From assembly GCA_011390755.1 (NCBI GenBank), contig JAABRU010000008.1, forward strand, positions 1 through 64,000: a stretch of DNA of 64,000 bases, written 5' to 3'. The position numbers and the translations under genes are program-made. The stretch comes from Desulfobacteraceae bacterium. GTDB taxonomy: Bacteria > Desulfobacterota > Desulfobacteria > Desulfobacterales > Desulfococcaceae. Position 1 is the stretch's first letter; every line of letters begins with the position of its first letter. Below are positions 20,067 to 60,138 of this stretch, one piece after another. A model generated the notes under the pieces. That model was not told the origin of the DNA, made no database searches, and saw nothing but the letters and a program-made list of their open reading frames with translations.

Positions 20067-20170
20067 ACTGTGTTAAGTTTTTCTGTTATGGGAAATGATG
20101 ACAGGGAGGACTGCCATCCGCCCTTACAGCGATTCCCTGGTTGTGTTATTCATAATAAAGGGCCATGATA

Positions 20171-20690
20171 TGCAGTCACAGCGAAGCATGAAAGCTGCGC
20201 GGAGTGCGAAAATTAAGGCGGAGGCCGGTTTTTCGCAGGCACTTTCATATAAACACTCATGACCGTGGGGTCACAACGAAGCATGAAAATACACCGTAGA
20301 GACGCACGGTGTGCGTCTCCGCAGAAGACGCACGCCGCAGAGAGACGCACGCCGTGCGTCTCTACAGGGACTTTCATGTAAACGGTCATGAGTCATGACT
20401 CACAGCGAAGCATGAAAGCTGCGCGGAGTGCGAAAATGAAGGCGGAGGCCGGTTTTTCGCAGACACTTTCATACAAACGTCCATGAGTTATGACTCACAA
20501 CGAAACATGAAAGGTTGGGTTAGCGAAGCGTAACCCAACAATATCAAGTATTTGTGTCGGGTTACGCTTCGCTGACCCGACCTGCGGTGAAAGACTTCCA
20601 TGTAAACGGTCATGATCGCCGGGTCACAACGAAGCATGAAAGTTTCAACCTGTTCCCGGGCTCCGGCAGTGTGTGAGGCTGCGGAGGTTT
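20171..20690. repeat. Family H repeat cluster, copy 3 (expanded)
   Basis: About 520 bases carry at least three units of the family H phrase in inverted orientation (AGCGAAGCATGAAAG, GCGCGGAGTGCGAAAAT, GGCGGAGGCCGGTTTTTCGC). Between them are the palindromic stretch ACGCACGGTGTGCGTCTC and a unit GTTAGCGAAGCGTAACCCAAC with its inverted partner GGGTTACGCTTCGCTGACCC. No gene is supported. The remaining gene-free DNA up to 21574 is AT-rich with no recognised feature except the promoter below. Confidence 0.7.
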
Positions 20691-31169: not shown

Positions 31170-31380
31170 GTCGTATGAGGCGGAGCCTCACCTCCGGTGT
31201 TACGGGGCGGAGCCCCGTAACGGGTCCGGGGAGAGATTTTCATGCTTCGCTGTGACCGTCAGTCATGGCCCTTTATATGAAAGTGTCTGCGAAAAACCGG
31301 CCCTTCGGCCTTATTTTTCGCACTCCGCGCAGCCTTCATGTTTCGCTGTGAGTCACGTCTCATGACCGTTTATATAAAAA
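31160..31380. repeat. Family H repeat, copy 4
   Basis: This has GAGGCGGAGCCTCACCTCCGG, the palindrome TACGGGGCGGAGCCCCGTAA, and two TTCATG-CTTCGCTGTGA phrases around GCGAAAAACCGGCCCTTCGG. The order matches copy 1 (1-240) joined to copy 2 (6870-7060), so this looks like the most complete version of the repeat. It lies between the intron remnant and the peptidase gene. Confidence 0.7.
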
Positions 31381-32584: not shown

Positions 32585-32872
32585 CAGTAGTTCGAAAAGT
32601 TTCCCCCGGATACAGTTTTACGGCTGTCCCGGAGTGCAAAAATTGTATTTTGCACCACCGCATCTCCCGGTTGCCCCATGCAAAAATACAATTTTTGCAC
32701 TCCTCCGGATACGGTTTTACGGCTGTCCCGGAGTGCAAAAACTGTATTTCTGCACCGCAGCATCTCCCGGTTGCCCCATGCAAAAATTGTATTTTGCACC
32801 ACCGCATCTCCCGGTTGCCCCATGCAAAAATACAATTTTTGCACTCCTCCGGAAACTTTTCGATCTACTGAG
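32585..32872. repeat. MITE-like element, family B copy 2, internally expanded
   Basis: Bounded by AGTAGTTCGAAAAGTTTCC and GGAAACTTTTCGATCTACT. The inside repeats the hairpin phrase GGAGTGCAAAAA, CATCTCCCGGTTGCCCCATG and ACAATTTTTGCACTCC at least twice, so this copy is about twice the length of the 59994 copy. It probably arose by recombination between two copies or by nested insertion. The track ORFs here are translated repeat. Confidence 0.75.
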
Positions 32873-40757: not shown

Positions 40758-40960
40758 TTCAGGTGATTTCCTGAAAAAAATGTACCATAACCGAGTGCCA
40801 AACGGAAAGTCCGGCAGTGTCTGACAGCGGACAGACTCTCACCGGCTTTCCGTCTGTGCTTCCTTCAGAAAGCGGTACTCAATGTCATTGACTTAAGCAG
40901 AATATTCCCCTCCCCCGGTGGGAGGGGAGTCTTAATCAATGACATTGAAGCGGTACTTAT
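40758..40960. repeat. MITE-like element, family D copy 3, inverted, containing a family C insertion
   Basis: The left end AGGTGATTTCCTGAAAAAAA matches the reverse complement of family D copies 1 and 2, and the shared interior includes GGAAAGTCCGGCAGTGTCTG. Near its far end it is interrupted by the family C element at 40880-40947. A 10-bp host direct repeat flanks that insert. The outer end then meets a family E element. Confidence 0.68.
40880..40947. mobile_element. MITE-like element, family C copy 1, with 10-bp target duplication
   Basis: A 68-bp near-perfect hairpin, CAATGTCATTGA...CTTAAG to CTTAATCAATGACATTG. It is flanked by the exact direct repeat AAGCGGTACT (40870-40879 and 40948-40957), a 10-bp target-site duplication. 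The host sequence, after removing one repeat, resembles the corresponding part of family D. Confidence 0.82.
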
Positions 40961-41236: not shown

Positions 41237-41758
41237 TCATGATTTCCGCGATGCAAACATATGAATCAGAATGCCCAGCAGGATAAAAATGATGCCGGGA
41301 ATGATAAAAGGAACCGCGCTGCCTCTTTTTTTCTCCACTGTCATCAGAAAGGATTTACAGGGGGGGGCTGAGCATTCCAGCGAAAAATCCAGATAATATG
41401 TTCCTTTGTCCAGCAGAATTTTATAATCATAAGCGTCTTTTTTTTCCGACCATCCTCCTTCCGAATCATAACCGGTTTCTGCCCAGAGTTCATCCCCGAA
41501 ACCGAAAAGCGGTTTTTTGTTTTTATCCAGCACCTCTCCGGAGATATGACTCCAGTGTCCGTAGGGCACACTTTGCCGTATGCCGATTTTATATACACTT
41601 CTGTCTTCACTGACCTCCAGAGGACCGAAAAGGGGTGCATCGGGCGGAAGGGATTTCATAACTGTGTCCCCGTCCGGAAAAGCCAGAAATCCCGCACTGA
41701 TCAGACAGAGAATACCGAAAAAAAGTAAAGCGTTTCCTATTTTTCTTCCTCTGCTCAT
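41237..41758 (-). CDS. Hypothetical membrane-anchored protein with two terminal helices
   Basis: A 173-residue protein with one hydrophobic helix at each end (NALLFFGILCLISAGFLAF near 10-28; FIIPGIIFILLGILIHMFA at the C-terminus). Between them is an exported beta-rich region of about 120 residues containing two cysteines in SLECSAPPCKSF, perhaps a disulfide. Such two-TM proteins often present a periplasmic domain. I do not recognise the family. It is on the same strand as the two genes upstream (DUF350 and a small Gly-rich protein), separated from them by a family C element. Confidence 0.6.
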   Translation of the reverse strand: MSRGRKIGNALLFFGILCLISAGFLAFPDGDTVMKSLPPDAPLFGPLEVSEDRSVYKIGIRQSVPYGHWSHISGEVLDKNKKPLFGFGDELWAETGYDSEGGWSEKKDAYDYKILLDKGTYYLDFSLECSAPPCKSFLMTVEKKRGSAVPFIIPGIIFILLGILIHMFASRKS

Positions 41759-41784
41759 AATATCCTCATTTCATATAATAATTT

Positions 41785-41910
41785 CAATGCCGTTTCCTTA
41801 AGCAGAAAATCCCTCCGGAGGGAAGGGGAAACATGCTCTGTTATCAGTTGATTTTTCCACCCTCCCCCTGCCCCTCCCTGAGGGAGGGGAGTCTTAAGGA
41901 AACGGCATTG
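41785..41910. mobile_element. MITE-like element, family C copy 2, with exact 10-bp target duplication
   Basis: A 126-bp element bounded by CAATGCCGTTTCCTTAAG and CTTAAGGAAACGGCATTG, which are perfect 18-bp inverted repeats. It is flanked on both sides by ATAATAATTT (41775-41784 and 41911-41920), a 10-bp target-site duplication. The interior is GC-rich with CCCTCCGGAGGG and CCCCTCCCTGAGGGAGGGGAG hairpins. It is the clearest mobile element in the window. Confidence 0.9.
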
Positions 41911-41923
41911 ATAATAATTTGAA

Positions 41924-42163
41924 TTACTTGCCTGCTCCCGGGCCGCCGCCGGTACGGGAGGGGCCGTATGCACTGCCGCTTCTGACACTGGATGCACCGT
42001 AATATTTTGGGCCTCCGAAATACAGGCCGGAAGGGGCATAGGCGCGGCCGCCGATGTATCCGGCATAGCCCCATCCCCTGAAACTGAGGAACATCATACA
42101 TGCGTATGCAATGGCAAGAATTAGCAGAATTCCGATGACAATGCTTCCTTTCTGATTTTGCAT
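41924..42163 (-). CDS. Small glycine/tyrosine-rich single-pass membrane protein
   Basis: A 79-residue protein. A hydrophobic N-terminal helix (SIVIGILLILAIAYACMMFLSF) is followed by a Gly-, Tyr- and Ser-rich tail (GGRAYAPSGLYFGGPKYYG, TGGGPGAGK). The tail looks disordered and exported. AAGGAGAAAAAAG precedes the ATG. It lies 31 bases downstream of the DUF350 gene, so cotranscription is likely. Unknown family; the ORF in the other frame over the same DNA is a shadow. Confidence 0.62.
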   Translation of the reverse strand: MQNQKGSIVIGILLILAIAYACMMFLSFRGWGYAGYIGGRAYAPSGLYFGGPKYYGASSVRSGSAYGPSRTGGGPGAGK

Positions 42164-42194
42164 TGCTTTTTTCTCCTTTCCGATCCGCGATATT

Positions 42195-43040
42195 TTATCC
42201 CAGGGTAAAATGCAGAATTACGGCAAAACTGATCATCACGGTAATCTCCAGCAGGGCCGCCCCCATGTTCTGATCTGTCTGAATTTCATGGTTCAGGGGA
42301 GAACCGGGGATGATGATTTTATCAAAAAAATAGCGGATGGCCGGCAGAAGGATAAAAATCAGCAGGGAATCCGCTGCAAATACATACAGATTATAGGACC
42401 AGCTGACAAAACTGCCGGAGGCCCCTTTCATCAGAATAATGCCGATGGCAATCATGGCCCCGCCGAAGGCCACACCGGCGGCCACATTATCTTTTTCAAT
42501 TTCATCATGAATATTAAAAGGTGTCATCCGGTCATAAAGCCAGGTGAAGACAATCAGGGCTATCTGCCCCAGAAAATAAAATGCCAGTGCCGTGTGCGGG
42601 CCCCCGCCCTGGCCATGCACCGCTCCGGCAATAATCATACCCGAAGCCATATAGGAACCGAACTGCACGGCCCCGGTTCCCGCGTTTCTGTCTTCAATAA
42701 TTTCTTTTACATTGGAAAAGCGGTAAAGAATCAGTTTGTCATTGATGACATGGGACAGATTGAGCAGGGCAATCCCCATCAGGGAATATCCGCCGACACT
42801 GAGGATATCCTGATAAATCCCCCTGGAAGGCCCCAGATAGGCCCCGATAAAAATGGCACTTACTGCCCCGAAATAACCGGCCACACTGACGGCCAGGGCC
42901 ACATTGTCTTTGGCAGTCAGCTCTTCGTCCAGTTTGTAGGGGGTCAGCATATCATTGACGATTTTGGAAAACAGCAGCACAAACACAAACAGTATCATCA
43001 GACTGCCGCCGTGCAGAATCTGATATGACATATTTTCCAT
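42195..43040 (-). CDS. DUF350 family membrane protein
   Basis: A 281-residue polytopic protein with about eight hydrophobic segments in two related halves (LTAKDNVALAVSVAGYFGAVSAIFIGA and IEKDNVAAGVAFGGAMIAIGIILM), as expected for duplicated DUF350 domains. DUF350 proteins are of unknown function and often occur with envelope-stress or polyamine-related genes. It is first in a minus-strand group with the Gly-rich protein. Divergent from the alpha-2-macroglobulin gene, with a family A element between. Confidence 0.85.
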   Translation of the reverse strand: MENMSYQILHGGSLMILFVFVLLFSKIVNDMLTPYKLDEELTAKDNVALAVSVAGYFGAVSAIFIGAYLGPSRGIYQDILSVGGYSLMGIALLNLSHVINDKLILYRFSNVKEIIEDRNAGTGAVQFGSYMASGMIIAGAVHGQGGGPHTALAFYFLGQIALIVFTWLYDRMTPFNIHDEIEKDNVAAGVAFGGAMIAIGIILMKGASGSFVSWSYNLYVFAADSLLIFILLPAIRYFFDKIIIPGSPLNHEIQTDQNMGAALLEITVMISFAVILHFTLG

Positions 43041-43223
43041 CCGGCATTCCCTTCTTTATCTATTTTGTTTTGTTATAAAAATATTCCGGCCCCATCCGCA
43101 GATTTTCATTTGCCCTTTTTTATAAATATTATTTTTTTATTGATTTTTCAATATATTTTTTTTATTGATATTTTCAGTATATTTTTTATAACAGTTCCTC
43201 ACACAGAAATCTTTCCGGCTGGG

Positions 43224-43357
43224 TAGTGGGTCAAATCCGTTGATGCCCCAGGTTTCCTGTCGCAGGGACGTATTGCATACGCCCGCCGGGGAGCGGCTCT
43301 CATCCGGGCGTATGCAGTACGCCCTTACAGGGGGGAATCAGCGGATTTGACCCACTA
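43224..43357. mobile_element. MITE-like element, family A copy 1 (best copy)
   Basis: A 134-bp element with ends TAGTGGGTCAAATCCGTTGA and TCAGCGGATTTGACCCACTA, matching in 20 of 21 positions. The core has GTATTGCATACGCCCG and CGGGCGTATGCAGTACGCCC. It sits about 160 bases before the alpha-2-macroglobulin start and about 180 after the DUF350 start. The flanks carry an imperfect 10-base repeat (TTTCCGGCTG and TCTCCGGCTG) that may be a decayed target duplication. Confidence 0.8.
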
Positions 43358-43518
43358 TCTCCGGCTGAATGCAAAACTTATGCAAATCATTTCAGGAATC
43401 CTTGAGTATCCCGGCATATCCTGCTATAGATTTACAGAAAATACATTTCACGGTTCAGTTTCCGGTTCTTTTATCCCCGTTTTTTTATCCAATGACCTGC
43501 AAAAAACAGGAGCGCACC

Positions 43519-46500
43519 ATGTTTCACAAAATTCTTCTTCTTCTTTTCTTATCTTTTCTGGCAATTCAGCTGATGAGGGTTTCCGAATCCCGCGCACAGC
43601 AGAATAAAACGGATGACCCCGTGCAGCAGAAAGCAGAGAAAGCATTTAAAGACGGCAATTTCAATGATGCCCTTTCCCTGTTTGAAAAACTCTGTACATC
43701 TCCGGATACGGATCCCCGGCAGGTGGGGAATGATCTGAATATGGCCGTTGCCTGTCTGGCCCGCCTGAACCGGGTGGATGAGGTGGATGATTTCCGGGAA
43801 AAGGTGATCGCTATTCACAAAGAGAACTGGCGGCTGCTCTATGCGGCTGCAAAGAGTTACCTGGATTTTCATCATTACGGTTTTATAATCGGGGGAGAGT
43901 TCAAACGGGGCGGACACCGGGGCGGCGGAAAATATGTCAATGCCTTTGAAAGGGACCGGGGAAGGGCTTTGCAGCTTATGGAAGATGCCCGGAAACTCCT
44001 GCTTTATGCGGCTGCGGAAAATGACGGGGAGAGAGCGGAACGCGCGGATTTCTATCTGGCCTGTGCGGATGTGCTGCTGCGGAACCGGGGATACAACTGT
44101 GCTTGGCAGTTGCAGTATCTCACGGATCTGAAAACACTGCCCGACTATACTGAAGACAATTATTATGACTGCGGACAGACCCGCGGCGCGCCTGTGGATC
44201 CGGAGGGCAATCCCATATATTACTCCATGCCGGAATCCTGGGAAGCCGCGGAAAATGACGGGGAACGCTGGCGCTGGCTGCTCATGCGGGCCATTGATGC
44301 GGATGCGGGATATACCAATACGGTCATGCAGCGTTTTGCCGGATTTCTTCACGAGCAGTTCGGTGTGCAGACCATGCAGAGCGGCATTTCCCCCTACCGT
44401 TTTGAAGCCCCGGAAGATAGCGGTACGGGGAAAAAAGAGGAAAGCGGCACCTATGCCCTGCACACACTGGGGGAAAATGAGACCATCGCCAGGCTGGCCA
44501 CGGGAATTAAACGCTTTCAACTGCCCGATGAATTCAATTTCATCCGCATTTACCGGGATACGGGCAGCAATCAGTCCCTGGCGCAGATTTTTGAAAACCG
44601 CCGCCAGTATGCCAAAGCTGCACAATTCTGGCAGCAGGTCGGAAATTCCGACAAAGTAAAACAGATTACCGCCAACTGGGGCGCATTTGAACCGCTCATG
44701 ACCCAGCCCGCGGGAAAAGGGGCCACCGTGGATTACCGCTTCCGCAACGGTTCCCGCGTGCGTTTTGCCGCCTATCCGCTGAAAATCGAAACCCTGCTCA
44801 AAGACATCAAAGATTATATCCGCTCCAATCCCCGGAATGCGGAATGGTATAAGGAAAATCCCGACAGTATCGGGTACCGCATTGTAGGGGAAGATGAGGA
44901 ACGCTATGTGGACCGGCAGATTGCGGAATGGTCTCTGGATCTGCGCCCCCGCACCGGGCATTTTGACAAACGCATTACCGTAACCACACCCCTGCAGGAA
45001 GCCGGAGCCTATCTGCTCAAGGCCCGCATGGAAGACGGCAATATCAGCCGCATTATCATCTGGATAGACAATACGGCCATTGTCCGCAAGAATCTGGATC
45101 AGGGCATTCTCTGGTATGTGGCCGATGCGGTGAGCGGAAAACCCGTGGAAAAAGCCAATGTGGAATTTTTCGGATACCGCCGGGACTGGCAGAACAAGGT
45201 GACGGGGAATCATACGGAGATTTCCGATTTTGCCGAATACACGGATAAAAACGGTCAGATTATCTTCAGTGAATCCGGCAAAGACCAATCGAATCACCTG
45301 CAGAACAATATGAACTGGCTGGCCATTGCCACCCATCCGGACGGACGGCTGGCCTATACGGGATTCGCTTCTGTCTGGTATGCCCGGCATTATGACCAGG
45401 AATATCATGAAAACAAGGTTTTTACCATTACCGACCGTCCGGTTTACCGTCCGGGCCAGGCTGTCAAATTCAAATTATGGGTGCGGAAGGCCCAGTATGA
45501 ACGGGAGGATATTTCGGATTTTGCAGGCAGCAGTTTTCCCCTGTATCTGAGCAATCCCCAGGGGGAAAAAATATGGGAAAAGACACTGAAAGCAGATGAA
45601 TGGGGGGGGATTTCCGCGGAATATGCCCTGCCCGAAGATGCAGCGCTGGGGGTTTATCAGATATTCATTCCCGGACACGGGGGGGGACATTTCCGGGTGG
45701 AGGAATACAAAAAACCGGAGTTTGAAGTCACTGTGGAAGGCCCGGAAGAGGCCGTGCGCCTGGGAGATACGGTAAAGGCAAAGATCACGGCCCGATATTA
45801 TTTCGGTGCGCCCGTCACCCATGCAAAGGTGAAATACAAAGTGCTGCGCCATACGCAGGATACCCAGTGGTATCCGCCCGGCCCCTGGGACTGGCTTTAC
45901 GGTGCGGGATATGCCTGGCTGGCCTATGACGCGCCCTGGTATCCGGGATGGCGGGAATGGGGCTGCCGCCGTCCCCTGCCCTGGTGGTGGCATCGGTCTT
46001 CTCCCCCGCCCGAACTGCTCATGGACAATGAGGCGGAAATCGGCCCGGACGGAAGCGTGGAGATTTCCATTGATACGGCTCTGGCAAAGGAACTGCACGG
46101 GGATACGGATCACCGTTATGAAATCACCGCGGAAGTCACAGACCTTTCCCGGCGTACCATTGCGGGAAAAGGCAGTGTCACGGCCGCGCGCAGTCCTTTC
46201 AAAGTCCATGTATGGACCGACCGGGGATATTTTCGCAGCGGGGATACGGTTCATGCCTCATTTTCCGCCAGAACGCCCGAAGGCAGCGAGGTGGAAGGAG
46301 AATCCCTTGTCCGCCTTTACCGGATTTCCTATGAAAATGAAAAACCCGTGGAAACCGAAATGCAGGAATGGAACATCGCAAAAGGGGAAAAACGGGAATT
46401 ACAGATCACCGCGGCCGCGGCCGGTCAGTACCGCCTTTCCTGCACCGTCACGGACGGGAAAGGGCAGCAGATGGAAGGGGGCTATCTTTTTACGGTGCGG

Positions 46501-49500
46501 GGCGAAGGCTTTGACGGAAAGGATTTCCGTTTCAACGCGCTGGAACTGATTCCGGACAAAAGCGAATACGCGCCCGGAGAAAAAGTGCGACTCATGATAA
46601 ATACGGACCGGCCCGGCTCCACTGTGCTTCTTTTTATCCGCCCGGCCAACGGGGTCTATCTGCCGCCCCGCATCATCCGCATGACAGGCAAAAGTGCGGT
46701 GGAAGAAATCGAAGTGATGAAAAAGGACATGCCCAATTTCTTCATTGAGGCCCTGACGGTGGCAGGCGGCAAGGTACACAGCGAAGCCAGGGAAATTGCG
46801 GTTCCGCCGCAGAAACGGGTGCTGCATGTGGAAGTCCTGCCCTCTTCGGAACGCTATAAACCGGGGGAAAAAGCGGAAATCAAAATAAAAATCACCGATC
46901 ACAGGGGCGAACCCTTCCGGGGTTCCACCGTGCTGACGGTTTATGACAAGGCTGTGGAATATATTTCCGGCGGTTCCAATGTGCCGGAGATCAAAGCCTT
47001 TTTCTGGAAATGGCGCAGACATCACAGTCCCGTGACCGAAAGCAGTCTGGGCCGGGTCTTTCAGAATCTCTATAAAGAAAAAGAGATTCCCATGCAGAAC
47101 CTGGGCATTTTCGGGCATTCCGTGGCTGATGAGGATGTGGAAACCTGGGGAAACGGCAGATTGGATAAAAATCAGCGCATGAAATCCGCCCCCAGAGGTA
47201 TGATCGGGGCGGCCATGCCCGCACCTTCTGCCGCTCCCATGCCGGAAGCCGCAGCCGATATGGCTTTTTCCGCGAAAGAGGAAAAATCCCGTGAATCGGC
47301 TCCCGCAGAAGCCGAAGCTGCGCCGGAAATGGCCGAACCGCTCATCCGCACACAGTTTGCGGACACGGCCTTCTGGGCGGATTCCGTGACCACGGATAAA
47401 AAAGGCATGGCAAAAATCACCTTCACCATGCCGGAAAACCTTTCGGGCTGGAAAATCCGCACCTGGGCCATGGGACACGGAACCGCAGTGGGAGAGGGTA
47501 CAGCCGAAACCGTGACCGCCAAAGACCTGATGGTGCGGCTGCAGGCCCCCCGTTTTTTTGTGCAGAAGGATGAAGTGGTACTGTCCGCCAATATCCACAA
47601 TTACCTGGAAAATCCCAAAGAAGTAAAAGCCCTTATGGAACTGGACGGCCCCTGTCTCAGCCTTATGGGGGAGAAAAACCGGACCGTTACAGTTGAACCC
47701 AACGGCGAAATCCGGGTGGACTGGCGGGTGTCCGTGCTGGAGGAAGGCGAGGCTGTGGTACGCATGAAAGCCCTTACAGATGAGGAATCCGATGCAATGG
47801 AAATGCGTTTCCCGGTCTATGTCCACGGCATGGACAAGATGATTCCCTTCTGCGGTGTTATCCGGCCCGAACAGCAAAATGCCGTGATTACAATGGAAGT
47901 GCCGGAACAGCGGAGACAGGAATCCGCGCGGCTGGAAATCCGTTATTCCCCCACCCTGGCCGGGGCAATGGTGGACGCGCTGCCCTATCTGAGCGATTAT
48001 CCCTACGGATGCACCGAACAGACCCTGAACCGCTTTGTCCCCACGGTCATCACCCTGAATGTGCTGAAAAAAATGGGGCTGAATCTCAAAGATATTCAGG
48101 AAAAACAGAGCAACCTCAACGCGCAGGAAATCGGTGATGATAAGCAGAGAGCCGCGCAGTGGAAAAGATTCCCCCGGAATCCCGTATTTGACGAAAGCGA
48201 AGTCATGAACATGGTCAAAAGCGGTGTGCAGCGCCTGACGAATATGCAGTTATCCGATGGCGGATGGGGATGGTTTTCCGGATGGGGGGAACATTCTTAC
48301 CCCCATACCACGGCGGTGGTCGTCCACGGATTGCAGATGGCAGAGAAAAACGGCGCGGCCGTGGTTCCCTCTGTCCTTCAGGAAGGCATTCACTGGTTGA
48401 AAAATTTTCAGGAAGATCAGGTACAACGCCTCATCAACGGACGTAAAGAAGGGAAAAAGAAAGACCCCTGGAAAGCCCATGCGGACAATATGGATGCCTT
48501 CATCTATATGGTGCTGGCCGATGCGGGACAGGAAAAGGGGGAAATGCGGGAATTTCTCTATGAGGACCGGAACCATGTCTCTGTTTACGGAAAAGCCATG
48601 TTTGCCCTGGCCCTGCATCAGCAGGGGCATAAGGACAGGGTGGATATGCTCATGCAGAATATTTCCCAGTATCTGGTGCAGGATGAGGAAAACCAGACGG
48701 CTTACCTCAATCTGGGCAATGATGGATACTGGTGGTACTGGTACGGCAGCGAAACCGAAGCCCATGCCTATTACCTCAAACTCCTGAGCCGGGTGGAACC
48801 CCAGGGAGAAACAGCTTCCCGGCTGGTCAAATACCTGCTCAACAACCGCAAAAATTCCACCTACTGGAATTCCACACGGGACACGGCCCTGTGCATTGAA
48901 GCCTTTGCCGACTATCTGGAAGCCACAGATGAGGGAAAACCGGATATGACCGTGGAAATCCTGGTGGACGGAAAAGTGAAAAAGAGTGTCCGCATTACAG
49001 CGGAAAACCTGTTCTCATTCGACAATCAGTTGCTCATCACCGGCGATGCGGTGACAACAGGGGAACATAAGGTGGAACTGCGCCGCAAAGGCAAAGGGCC
49101 GCTGTATTTCAACGCGTATCTCAGTTATTTCACCCTGGAGGATTATATCACCAAAGCCGGGATGGAAATCAAAGTGGAGCGGCAGTATTACCGACTCCGG
49201 AAAATGGAAAAAAGCGTGAAAGTGGCCGGTGCAAGGGGGCAGGCTTTGGATCAGAAAGTGGAAAAATACGAACGCATCCCTTTGGGAAACCTGGCCCTGC
49301 TGAAAAGCGGGGATCTGGTGGAAGTGGAACTGCTGATCGAAAGCAAGAATGATTACGAATACATCATCTTTGAAGACATGAAAGCCGCAGGATTTGAGCC
49401 GGTGGAAGTCCGCAGCGGATACACGGACAATGCCATGCGGGCCTATACGGAATTCCGGGATGAAAAAGTGGCCTTCTTCGTCCGCTCCCTGGCAAGGGGA

Positions 49501-49635
49501 AAACACAGCATGGCCTACCGGCTGAGAGCGGAAATCCCCGGAAAATTCAGCGCACTGCCCGCCAGAGGATACGCCATGTACGCACCCGAACTGCGGGGGA
49601 ATTCCGATGAGATAAAGTTGCGGATTGAGGATTGA
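43519..49635 (+). CDS. Bacterial alpha-2-macroglobulin with thioester motif
   Basis: A 2038-residue secreted protein. I start it at MFHKILLLLFLSFLAIQL (43519), after CAGGAGC; the track ORF adds 50 implausible residues. The signal peptide ends near SRAQQ with no lipobox cysteine. Helical repeat-like sequence follows (about 30-350), then the MG domains including TDRPVYRPGQAVKFKLWVR. Then comes an Ala/Pro/Met-rich stretch near residues 1215-1275 that looks like the protease bait region. After it are SGWKIRTWAMGHGT, YPYGCTEQTLNRF (Cys1498, the CxEQ thioester site) and MQLSDGGWGWFSGWG. The protein should trap attacking proteases, as in E. coli YfhM. No pbpC gene is adjacent, unlike the usual arrangement. 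Confidence 0.92.
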   Translation: MFHKILLLLFLSFLAIQLMRVSESRAQQNKTDDPVQQKAEKAFKDGNFNDALSLFEKLCTSPDTDPRQVGNDLNMAVACLARLNRVDEVDDFREKVIAIHKENWRLLYAAAKSYLDFHHYGFIIGGEFKRGGHRGGGKYVNAFERDRGRALQLMEDARKLLLYAAAENDGERAERADFYLACADVLLRNRGYNCAWQLQYLTDLKTLPDYTEDNYYDCGQTRGAPVDPEGNPIYYSMPESWEAAENDGERWRWLLMRAIDADAGYTNTVMQRFAGFLHEQFGVQTMQSGISPYRFEAPEDSGTGKKEESGTYALHTLGENETIARLATGIKRFQLPDEFNFIRIYRDTGSNQSLAQIFENRRQYAKAAQFWQQVGNSDKVKQITANWGAFEPLMTQPAGKGATVDYRFRNGSRVRFAAYPLKIETLLKDIKDYIRSNPRNAEWYKENPDSIGYRIVGEDEERYVDRQIAEWSLDLRPRTGHFDKRITVTTPLQEAGAYLLKARMEDGNISRIIIWIDNTAIVRKNLDQGILWYVADAVSGKPVEKANVEFFGYRRDWQNKVTGNHTEISDFAEYTDKNGQIIFSESGKDQSNHLQNNMNWLAIATHPDGRLAYTGFASVWYARHYDQEYHENKVFTITDRPVYRPGQAVKFKLWVRKAQYEREDISDFAGSSFPLYLSNPQGEKIWEKTLKADEWGGISAEYALPEDAALGVYQIFIPGHGGGHFRVEEYKKPEFEVTVEGPEEAVRLGDTVKAKITARYYFGAPVTHAKVKYKVLRHTQDTQWYPPGPWDWLYGAGYAWLAYDAPWYPGWREWGCRRPLPWWWHRSSPPPELLMDNEAEIGPDGSVEISIDTALAKELHGDTDHRYEITAEVTDLSRRTIAGKGSVTAARSPFKVHVWTDRGYFRSGDTVHASFSARTPEGSEVEGESLVRLYRISYENEKPVETEMQEWNIAKGEKRELQITAAAAGQYRLSCTVTDGKGQQMEGGYLFTVRGEGFDGKDFRFNALELIPDKSEYAPGEKVRLMINTDRPGSTVLLFIRPANGVYLPPRIIRMTGKSAVEEIEVMKKDMPNFFIEALTVAGGKVHSEAREIAVPPQKRVLHVEVLPSSERYKPGEKAEIKIKITDHRGEPFRGSTVLTVYDKAVEYISGGSNVPEIKAFFWKWRRHHSPVTESSLGRVFQNLYKEKEIPMQNLGIFGHSVADEDVETWGNGRLDKNQRMKSAPRGMIGAAMPAPSAAPMPEAAADMAFSAKEEKSRESAPAEAEAAPEMAEPLIRTQFADTAFWADSVTTDKKGMAKITFTMPENLSGWKIRTWAMGHGTAVGEGTAETVTAKDLMVRLQAPRFFVQKDEVVLSANIHNYLENPKEVKALMELDGPCLSLMGEKNRTVTVEPNGEIRVDWRVSVLEEGEAVVRMKALTDEESDAMEMRFPVYVHGMDKMIPFCGVIRPEQQNAVITMEVPEQRRQESARLEIRYSPTLAGAMVDALPYLSDYPYGCTEQTLNRFVPTVITLNVLKKMGLNLKDIQEKQSNLNAQEIGDDKQRAAQWKRFPRNPVFDESEVMNMVKSGVQRLTNMQLSDGGWGWFSGWGEHSYPHTTAVVVHGLQMAEKNGAAVVPSVLQEGIHWLKNFQEDQVQRLINGRKEGKKKDPWKAHADNMDAFIYMVLADAGQEKGEMREFLYEDRNHVSVYGKAMFALALHQQGHKDRVDMLMQNISQYLVQDEENQTAYLNLGNDGYWWYWYGSETEAHAYYLKLLSRVEPQGETASRLVKYLLNNRKNSTYWNSTRDTALCIEAFADYLEATDEGKPDMTVEILVDGKVKKSVRITAENLFSFDNQLLITGDAVTTGEHKVELRRKGKGPLYFNAYLSYFTLEDYITKAGMEIKVERQYYRLRKMEKSVKVAGARGQALDQKVEKYERIPLGNLALLKSGDLVEVELLIESKNDYEYIIFEDMKAAGFEPVEVRSGYTDNAMRAYTEFRDEKVAFFVRSLARGKHSMAYRLRAEIPGKFSALPARGYAMYAPELRGNSDEIKLRIED

Positions 49636-59993: not shown

Positions 59994-60138
59994 TCAGTGG
60001 ATCGAAAAGTTTCCCCCGGATACGGTTTTACGGCTGTCCCGGAGTGCGGAAACTGTATTTCTGCACCGCCGCATCTCCCGGTTACCCCATGCAAAAATAC
60101 AATTTTTGCACTCCTCCGGAAACGTTTCGATCTGCTGA
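59994..60138. repeat. MITE-like element, family B copy 3 (simple form)
   Basis: A 145-bp element with ends TCAGTGGATCGAAAAGTTTCC and AACGTTTCGATCTGCTGA. The interior is CGGAGTGCGGAAACTGTATTT, CATCTCCCGGTTACCCCATG and ACAATTTTTGCACTCCTCCGG. It is the basic unit of the expanded copy at 32585. Beyond it up to 60356 are a GTAGGGACGA repeat and a CGCCCGGAAATTTATTTCCG-type hairpin. Confidence 0.75.

Follow-up and report, generated by a model that had tools for sequence, protein, structure and literature searches.

What is the short palindromic sequence wedged between two genes of this Desulfobacteraceae genome, and what could have moved it there? In the window – by which we mean the whole stretch of 64,000 nucleotides analysed here – the body of the element spans positions 41785–41910 (126 bp) and is bounded by perfect 18-bp inverted ends, the left one (41785–41802, + strand) being CAATGCCGTTTCCTTAAG, which we refer to as class C, and the right one (41893–41910, − strand) its exact complement, CTTAAGGAAACGGCATTG. 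The same 10 bp, ATAATAATTT, with TA at positions 5–6, lie on both sides, at 41775–41784 on the left and at 41911–41920 on the right (neither copy being assigned a strand). An earlier note on this DNA had described perfect ends with an exact 10-bp target duplication, and direct reading bears this out, at 18/18 and 10/10 positions, respectively. Between the ends we find an interior of the type termed I2 (41803–41892, also unstranded), a G/C-rich double hairpin with a GGGAGGGTGGAAAAATC core on the − strand. The element contains neither an open reading frame (ORF) of its own nor a transposase gene, it folds into a single extended hairpin (−70.7 kcal/mol, z −7.3), and an Rfam search of its region returned no match.

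The position is intergenic, between two co-oriented − strand ORFs. On the right, 3 bp separate the duplication from the stop codon of a Gly-rich ORF of 79 codons (41924–42163) – immediately downstream of the Gly-rich gene, just where the earlier note had put it – and on the left, the ORF at 41237–41758 has its start codon (41758) 16 bp away, the element lying upstream of it; a Pfam search of both flanking proteins gave no match. In this neighbourhood (41237–49635), the small Gly-rich ORF and a DUF350 membrane protein adjoin a large alpha-2-macroglobulin-like protein.

Class C copies in the host genome

The 18-mer end recurs within the window itself, with six matches at up to three mismatches, two of them exact, compared with 0.08 in shuffled sequence; a lone class C-like end, CAATACCGTTTCCTTAGG, is found at 1949–1966. 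Across the host draft genome (6.9 Mb in 379 contigs, 91% complete), the same tolerance yields 431 matches (215 + 216), as opposed to 20 (13 + 7) for a reversed control pattern, and at no more than one mismatch there are 160 class C ends versus one in the control. The full element matches 97 places, with identity from 98% downwards. Other genomic copies with the same ends, which the earlier note had proposed to look for, are thus plentiful.

The copies also carry the duplication. Among 61 paired copies, the 10-bp repeat is exact in 22, matches at 9/10 positions in 11 and at 8/10 in six, while shuffling flanks among the copies gives 0.39, 0.47 and 1.12, respectively. Of the 45 clean class C pairs in a 1.27-Mb sample, 28 are flanked by 10-bp repeats that differ at no more than one position – as the earlier note's reading requires of further copies – and each of the other lengths from 7 to 14 occurs at most once. 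The target has a purine or A at its left edge, T at its right edge and TA at its centre (25/28). This census covers selected regions, and loci with these ends are over-represented in the sample, so that the proportions of classes in it are not unbiased; pair finding allowed up to 3–4 mismatches per end, and some pairs are old or nested copies.

Other repeats are present as well. Palindromic families unrelated to these ends lie in the window at 1–235, 20146–20641, 31173–31380, 32602–32856 and 60012–60123, and a further repeat, about 130 bp long and with termini resembling TGTCCTG...CAGGACACTA, has at least five copies elsewhere in the genome (L115 at 3874, L244 at 7120, L284 at 1257, L307 at 2891 and L311 at 1888).

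Candidate IS4-family partners in relatives

The earlier note had suggested searching for an autonomous counterpart, an element that has these ends and a transposase gene; such elements were found in relatives, not in the draft genome of the host. There, a search with the IS4 family model found no transposase above the cut-off. Of the five PF01609 matches in this genome, one (L060, contig C310) adjoins a class C end but sits between its own AGAAGCTGTTTT ends, and the other four (L061–L064) have no good class C ends nearby; none was retained as a partner. The first of these (L060 1192–1992, G000:C310) is a nested insertion of a transposase with AGAAGCTGTTTT ends beside a class C copy, and by eye this transposase looks IS5-like. 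The missing IS4 transposase may belong to a multi-copy insertion sequence that was lost or collapsed in the draft; alternatively, the family may survive here as a relic.

A scan of public genomes located the exact class C end in Desulfobacterota, Bacteroidota, KSB1 and others, and in several of these genomes class C mini-elements are flanked by exact 10-bp duplications. Two complete IS4-family elements with class C ends, one of 1467 bp encoding 413 aa (L104) and one of 1563 bp encoding 440 aa (L073), come from another Deltaproteobacterium and from KSB1; the two proteins score above the cut-off of NCBIfam NF033592 (IS4 family transposase) and also match PF01609. A further relative (G004) is a complete genome from the same family as the host, with a chromosome of 6,610,564 bp, putatively that of Desulfonema ishimotonii Tokyo 01, for which a chromosome has been published (PMC6390638). 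It carries insertion sequences of 1470 bp (L211, L212, L219 and L223) with class C ends and exact 10-bp duplications, encoding an IS4-family transposase above the NF033592 cut-off, which in L223 lies at 362–1657, together with about 20 mini-elements of 124 bp with class C ends. Nineteen of the latter were read: 18 are identical, one has a single change, and 17 have exact 10-bp duplications. TA stands at the target centre in 15/17 of these mini-elements and in 4/4 insertion sequences.

These partners agree with the IS4 subgroup as defined by De Palmenaer et al. 2008 (PMC2266710), with ends of the form -AATR--------WTW----, duplications of 10–13 bp and a length of 1400–1650 bp. The end CAATGCCGTTTCCTTAAG fits this pattern, the 10-bp duplications of class C and of class T (described below) fall within the range, and the cognate elements in relatives fit in size, in ends and in the YREK motif, which is present in the transposases of class C, T-like and N elements, all of which exceed the NF033592 cut-off; the window element differs in having no transposase. 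On the sequence evidence, it is very probably a miniature inverted-repeat transposable element (MITE) that depends for its movement, in trans, on a transposase of the IS4 family, IS4 subgroup, which supports the view, already taken in the earlier note, of a mini-element mobilised by a transposase that duplicates 10 bp.

Could the sequence instead be a non-mobile intergenic hairpin repeat, similar to REP/BIME sequences or a terminator, with a 10-bp flanking repeat by coincidence? The strong fold, the location between co-oriented ORFs and copies numbering in the hundreds would all suit such an origin. Yet most paired copies have the duplication where chance would give it to fewer than one, nearly identical copies occupy about 20 sites in one relative, and the ends are common to insertion sequences; we regard this explanation as highly improbable, and as the sole one it is refuted by the exact target duplications. 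A host function acquired by the element after insertion is possible. To our knowledge, REPINs and REP elements have not been described as leaving target duplications. They resemble the present family as abundant intergenic hairpins moved in trans, but depend on REP-associated tyrosine transposases (PMC3116915).

End classes and their interiors

Beyond what the earlier note had described, class C turned out not to stand alone: IS4-type ends fall into at least four classes, and these have interiors in common. In the host genome, class G (CAATGCTGYTGMCTTAAG) has 215 matches and class T (CAATGTCAYTGACKTAAG) 242, in addition to the 160 of class C, with controls of 0–1 for all three, and class N (CAATGSCATTAAGTTAAG) has several copies. 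All have CAAT on the outside and TTAAG on the inside (in some T copies, GTAAG), the differences lying mainly in the central 8 bp. Class T, like class C, is associated with a 10-bp duplication. Class G mainly has one of 11 bp, though in fewer copies (8/27 with at most one mismatch), and its targets are C-run/G-run palindromes, the hairpins of other mini-elements among them. Duplication length and target track the ends and not the interior.

Class T is represented in the window by a second mini-element, 0.84 kb from the first (40880–40947, 68 bp, unstranded), with ends CAATGTCATTGACTTAAG – the right one being one base short – and an interior of type I1, flanked by an exact 10-bp duplication, AAGCGGTACT, at 40870–40879 and 40948–40957. 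Two degenerate class G ends, 377 bp apart and without duplication, lie at 2075–2451.

Relatives supply candidate transposases for further classes. IS4-family transposases lie there between near-T ends, CAATGTCATTAACTTAAG, accompanied by exact 10-bp duplications, and between N ends, CAATGCCATTAAGTTAAG, with an 11-bp duplication containing one mismatch; for class G, whose ends are present in 11 genomes, no cognate transposase was found.

Three interiors recur: I1, a short hairpin whose outer arms resemble those of I2; I2, of about 90–112 bp; and I3, of about 88 bp. Clean pairs with the same end on both sides enclose I1, I2 and I3 in 15, 20 and nine cases for class C, in two, seven and 14 for class G, and in 17, eight and three for class T, and I3 additionally occurs inside N ends and, in G004, inside C ends. 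At least three related interiors are found inside two to four IS4-type end classes. Alignments across classes far exceed those of dinucleotide shuffles, both for I3 (C–G, 88 versus at most 28; C–N, 76 versus 25) and for I2 (C–G, 104 versus 36; C–T, 80 versus 39). As to a free-standing I3 hairpin without IS4 ends, 41 of the 72 core matches are end-less, nearly all of them chance or unrelated by inspection; genuine I3 copies nearly always lie inside IS4-type ends, class N included. The interiors found between class C ends in other genomes are quite different and often palindromic. Several other Desulfobacterota loci (L065, L083, L084, L085 and L086) have class C ends around GTAGGGGCGGGGTTTATCCCCGCCC- and CCCCCTTTGAAGGGGGATTAAGGGGG-type palindromes, which look like common environmental intergenic repeats.

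How did such combinations arise? Internal deletion is the usual origin of MITEs, and the identity of the mini-element ends with those of IS4 elements might suggest that the family is a simple derivative of one such element, with an interior left over from its parent. This is unlikely. In G004, insertion sequence and mini-element are alike on either side over the 18-bp end, with no subterminal likeness past it; the mini-element interiors are unrelated to the interior of IS4 insertion sequences; and one interior occurs in different end classes, just as different interiors occur within the same ends.

Alternatively, the end classes may have diverged by point mutation within one family that followed its transposase, with no exchange between elements. 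This is in keeping with the restriction of most differences to about eight central positions and with the tree of I3, in which the end classes form almost separate groups, but we consider it doubtful. In the tree of I2, class C ends crop up among the interiors of class G two or more times independently (with modest support), the C, T and N ends match those of existing IS4 elements exactly or nearly, and both ends would have to change together. The interior trees, built on about 90–110 columns and for the most part modestly supported, require no fewer than three changes of the end label for I3 and five for I2, far fewer than with shuffled labels, so exchange would have been repeated but not free. 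Finally, a duplication is found in only 1/16 elements with two different ends, compared with 63/101 with matching ends (Fisher p 2e-5), a lack that sits poorly with point mutation and is as expected if mixed-end elements are recombinants rather than products of transposition.

We lean, if only slightly, towards modular mini-transposons, in which a palindromic interior outlives the loss of its transposase by taking the ends of another IS4-type element and, as a passenger, is handed from one transposase to the next, each with its own target and duplication length, and in which mixed-end recombinants cannot transpose. The transposase would recognise the 18-bp ends, probably reading the outer CAAT and inner TTAAG throughout the subgroup and the central 8 bp in a class-specific manner. 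The element would then be excised and joined to a TA-centred target whose strands are cut 10 bp apart – cut-and-paste being what the family suggests – and gap repair would leave the 10-bp duplication. The interior, carried by at least four end classes, would be dispensable for recognition, a palindromic passenger. Ends would most likely be exchanged by recombination or gene conversion between copies with a common interior, a process predicted to pass through mixed-end intermediates that carry no duplication.

Known systems and wider meaning

The kind of element is itself known, while its modularity appears to be new for bacteria: in the open-licence papers searched, no bacterial case of a conserved interior with different ends was found. 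The text of the IS4 survey does not mention MITEs (PMC2266710), and a review of bacterial MITEs mentions neither IS4 nor chimeric MITEs (PMC10969869). The family shares with the MITEs of that review its short, non-coding nature, inverted ends, target duplications and many copies, but differs from them in that one interior is common to several transposase-specific end classes. The closest parallel to such a combination comes from the coral CMITEs (PMC2872659), whose interior, of unknown origin, is more conserved between families than the ends, with cross-mobilisation suggested; those elements are of piggyBac type in an animal, whereas here we have IS4-type elements in bacteria, whose duplication length and target track the end class. 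The hupL MITE of Ca. Thiomargarita nelsonii (PMC4853749), with 10-bp direct repeats, 19-bp inverted ends and matches on 260 contigs, was assigned to a PD-(D/E)XK transposase, no parental insertion sequence having been found. Going by its description, it resembles the window family in its 10-bp repeats, similar end length and many copies, so that an IS4 origin might be considered for it, as a lead only.

The findings connect intergenic hairpins, very abundant in sulfate-reducing bacteria and in other phyla, with one specific group of transposases. With both its insertion sequence and nearly identical mini-elements, G004 looks recently active, which makes the system amenable to testing. Transposase specificity may be encoded, in readable form, in the central 8 bp of the ends, for which target and duplication length would serve as separate read-outs, and the family as a whole offers a natural experiment in how non-autonomous elements outlive their transposase.
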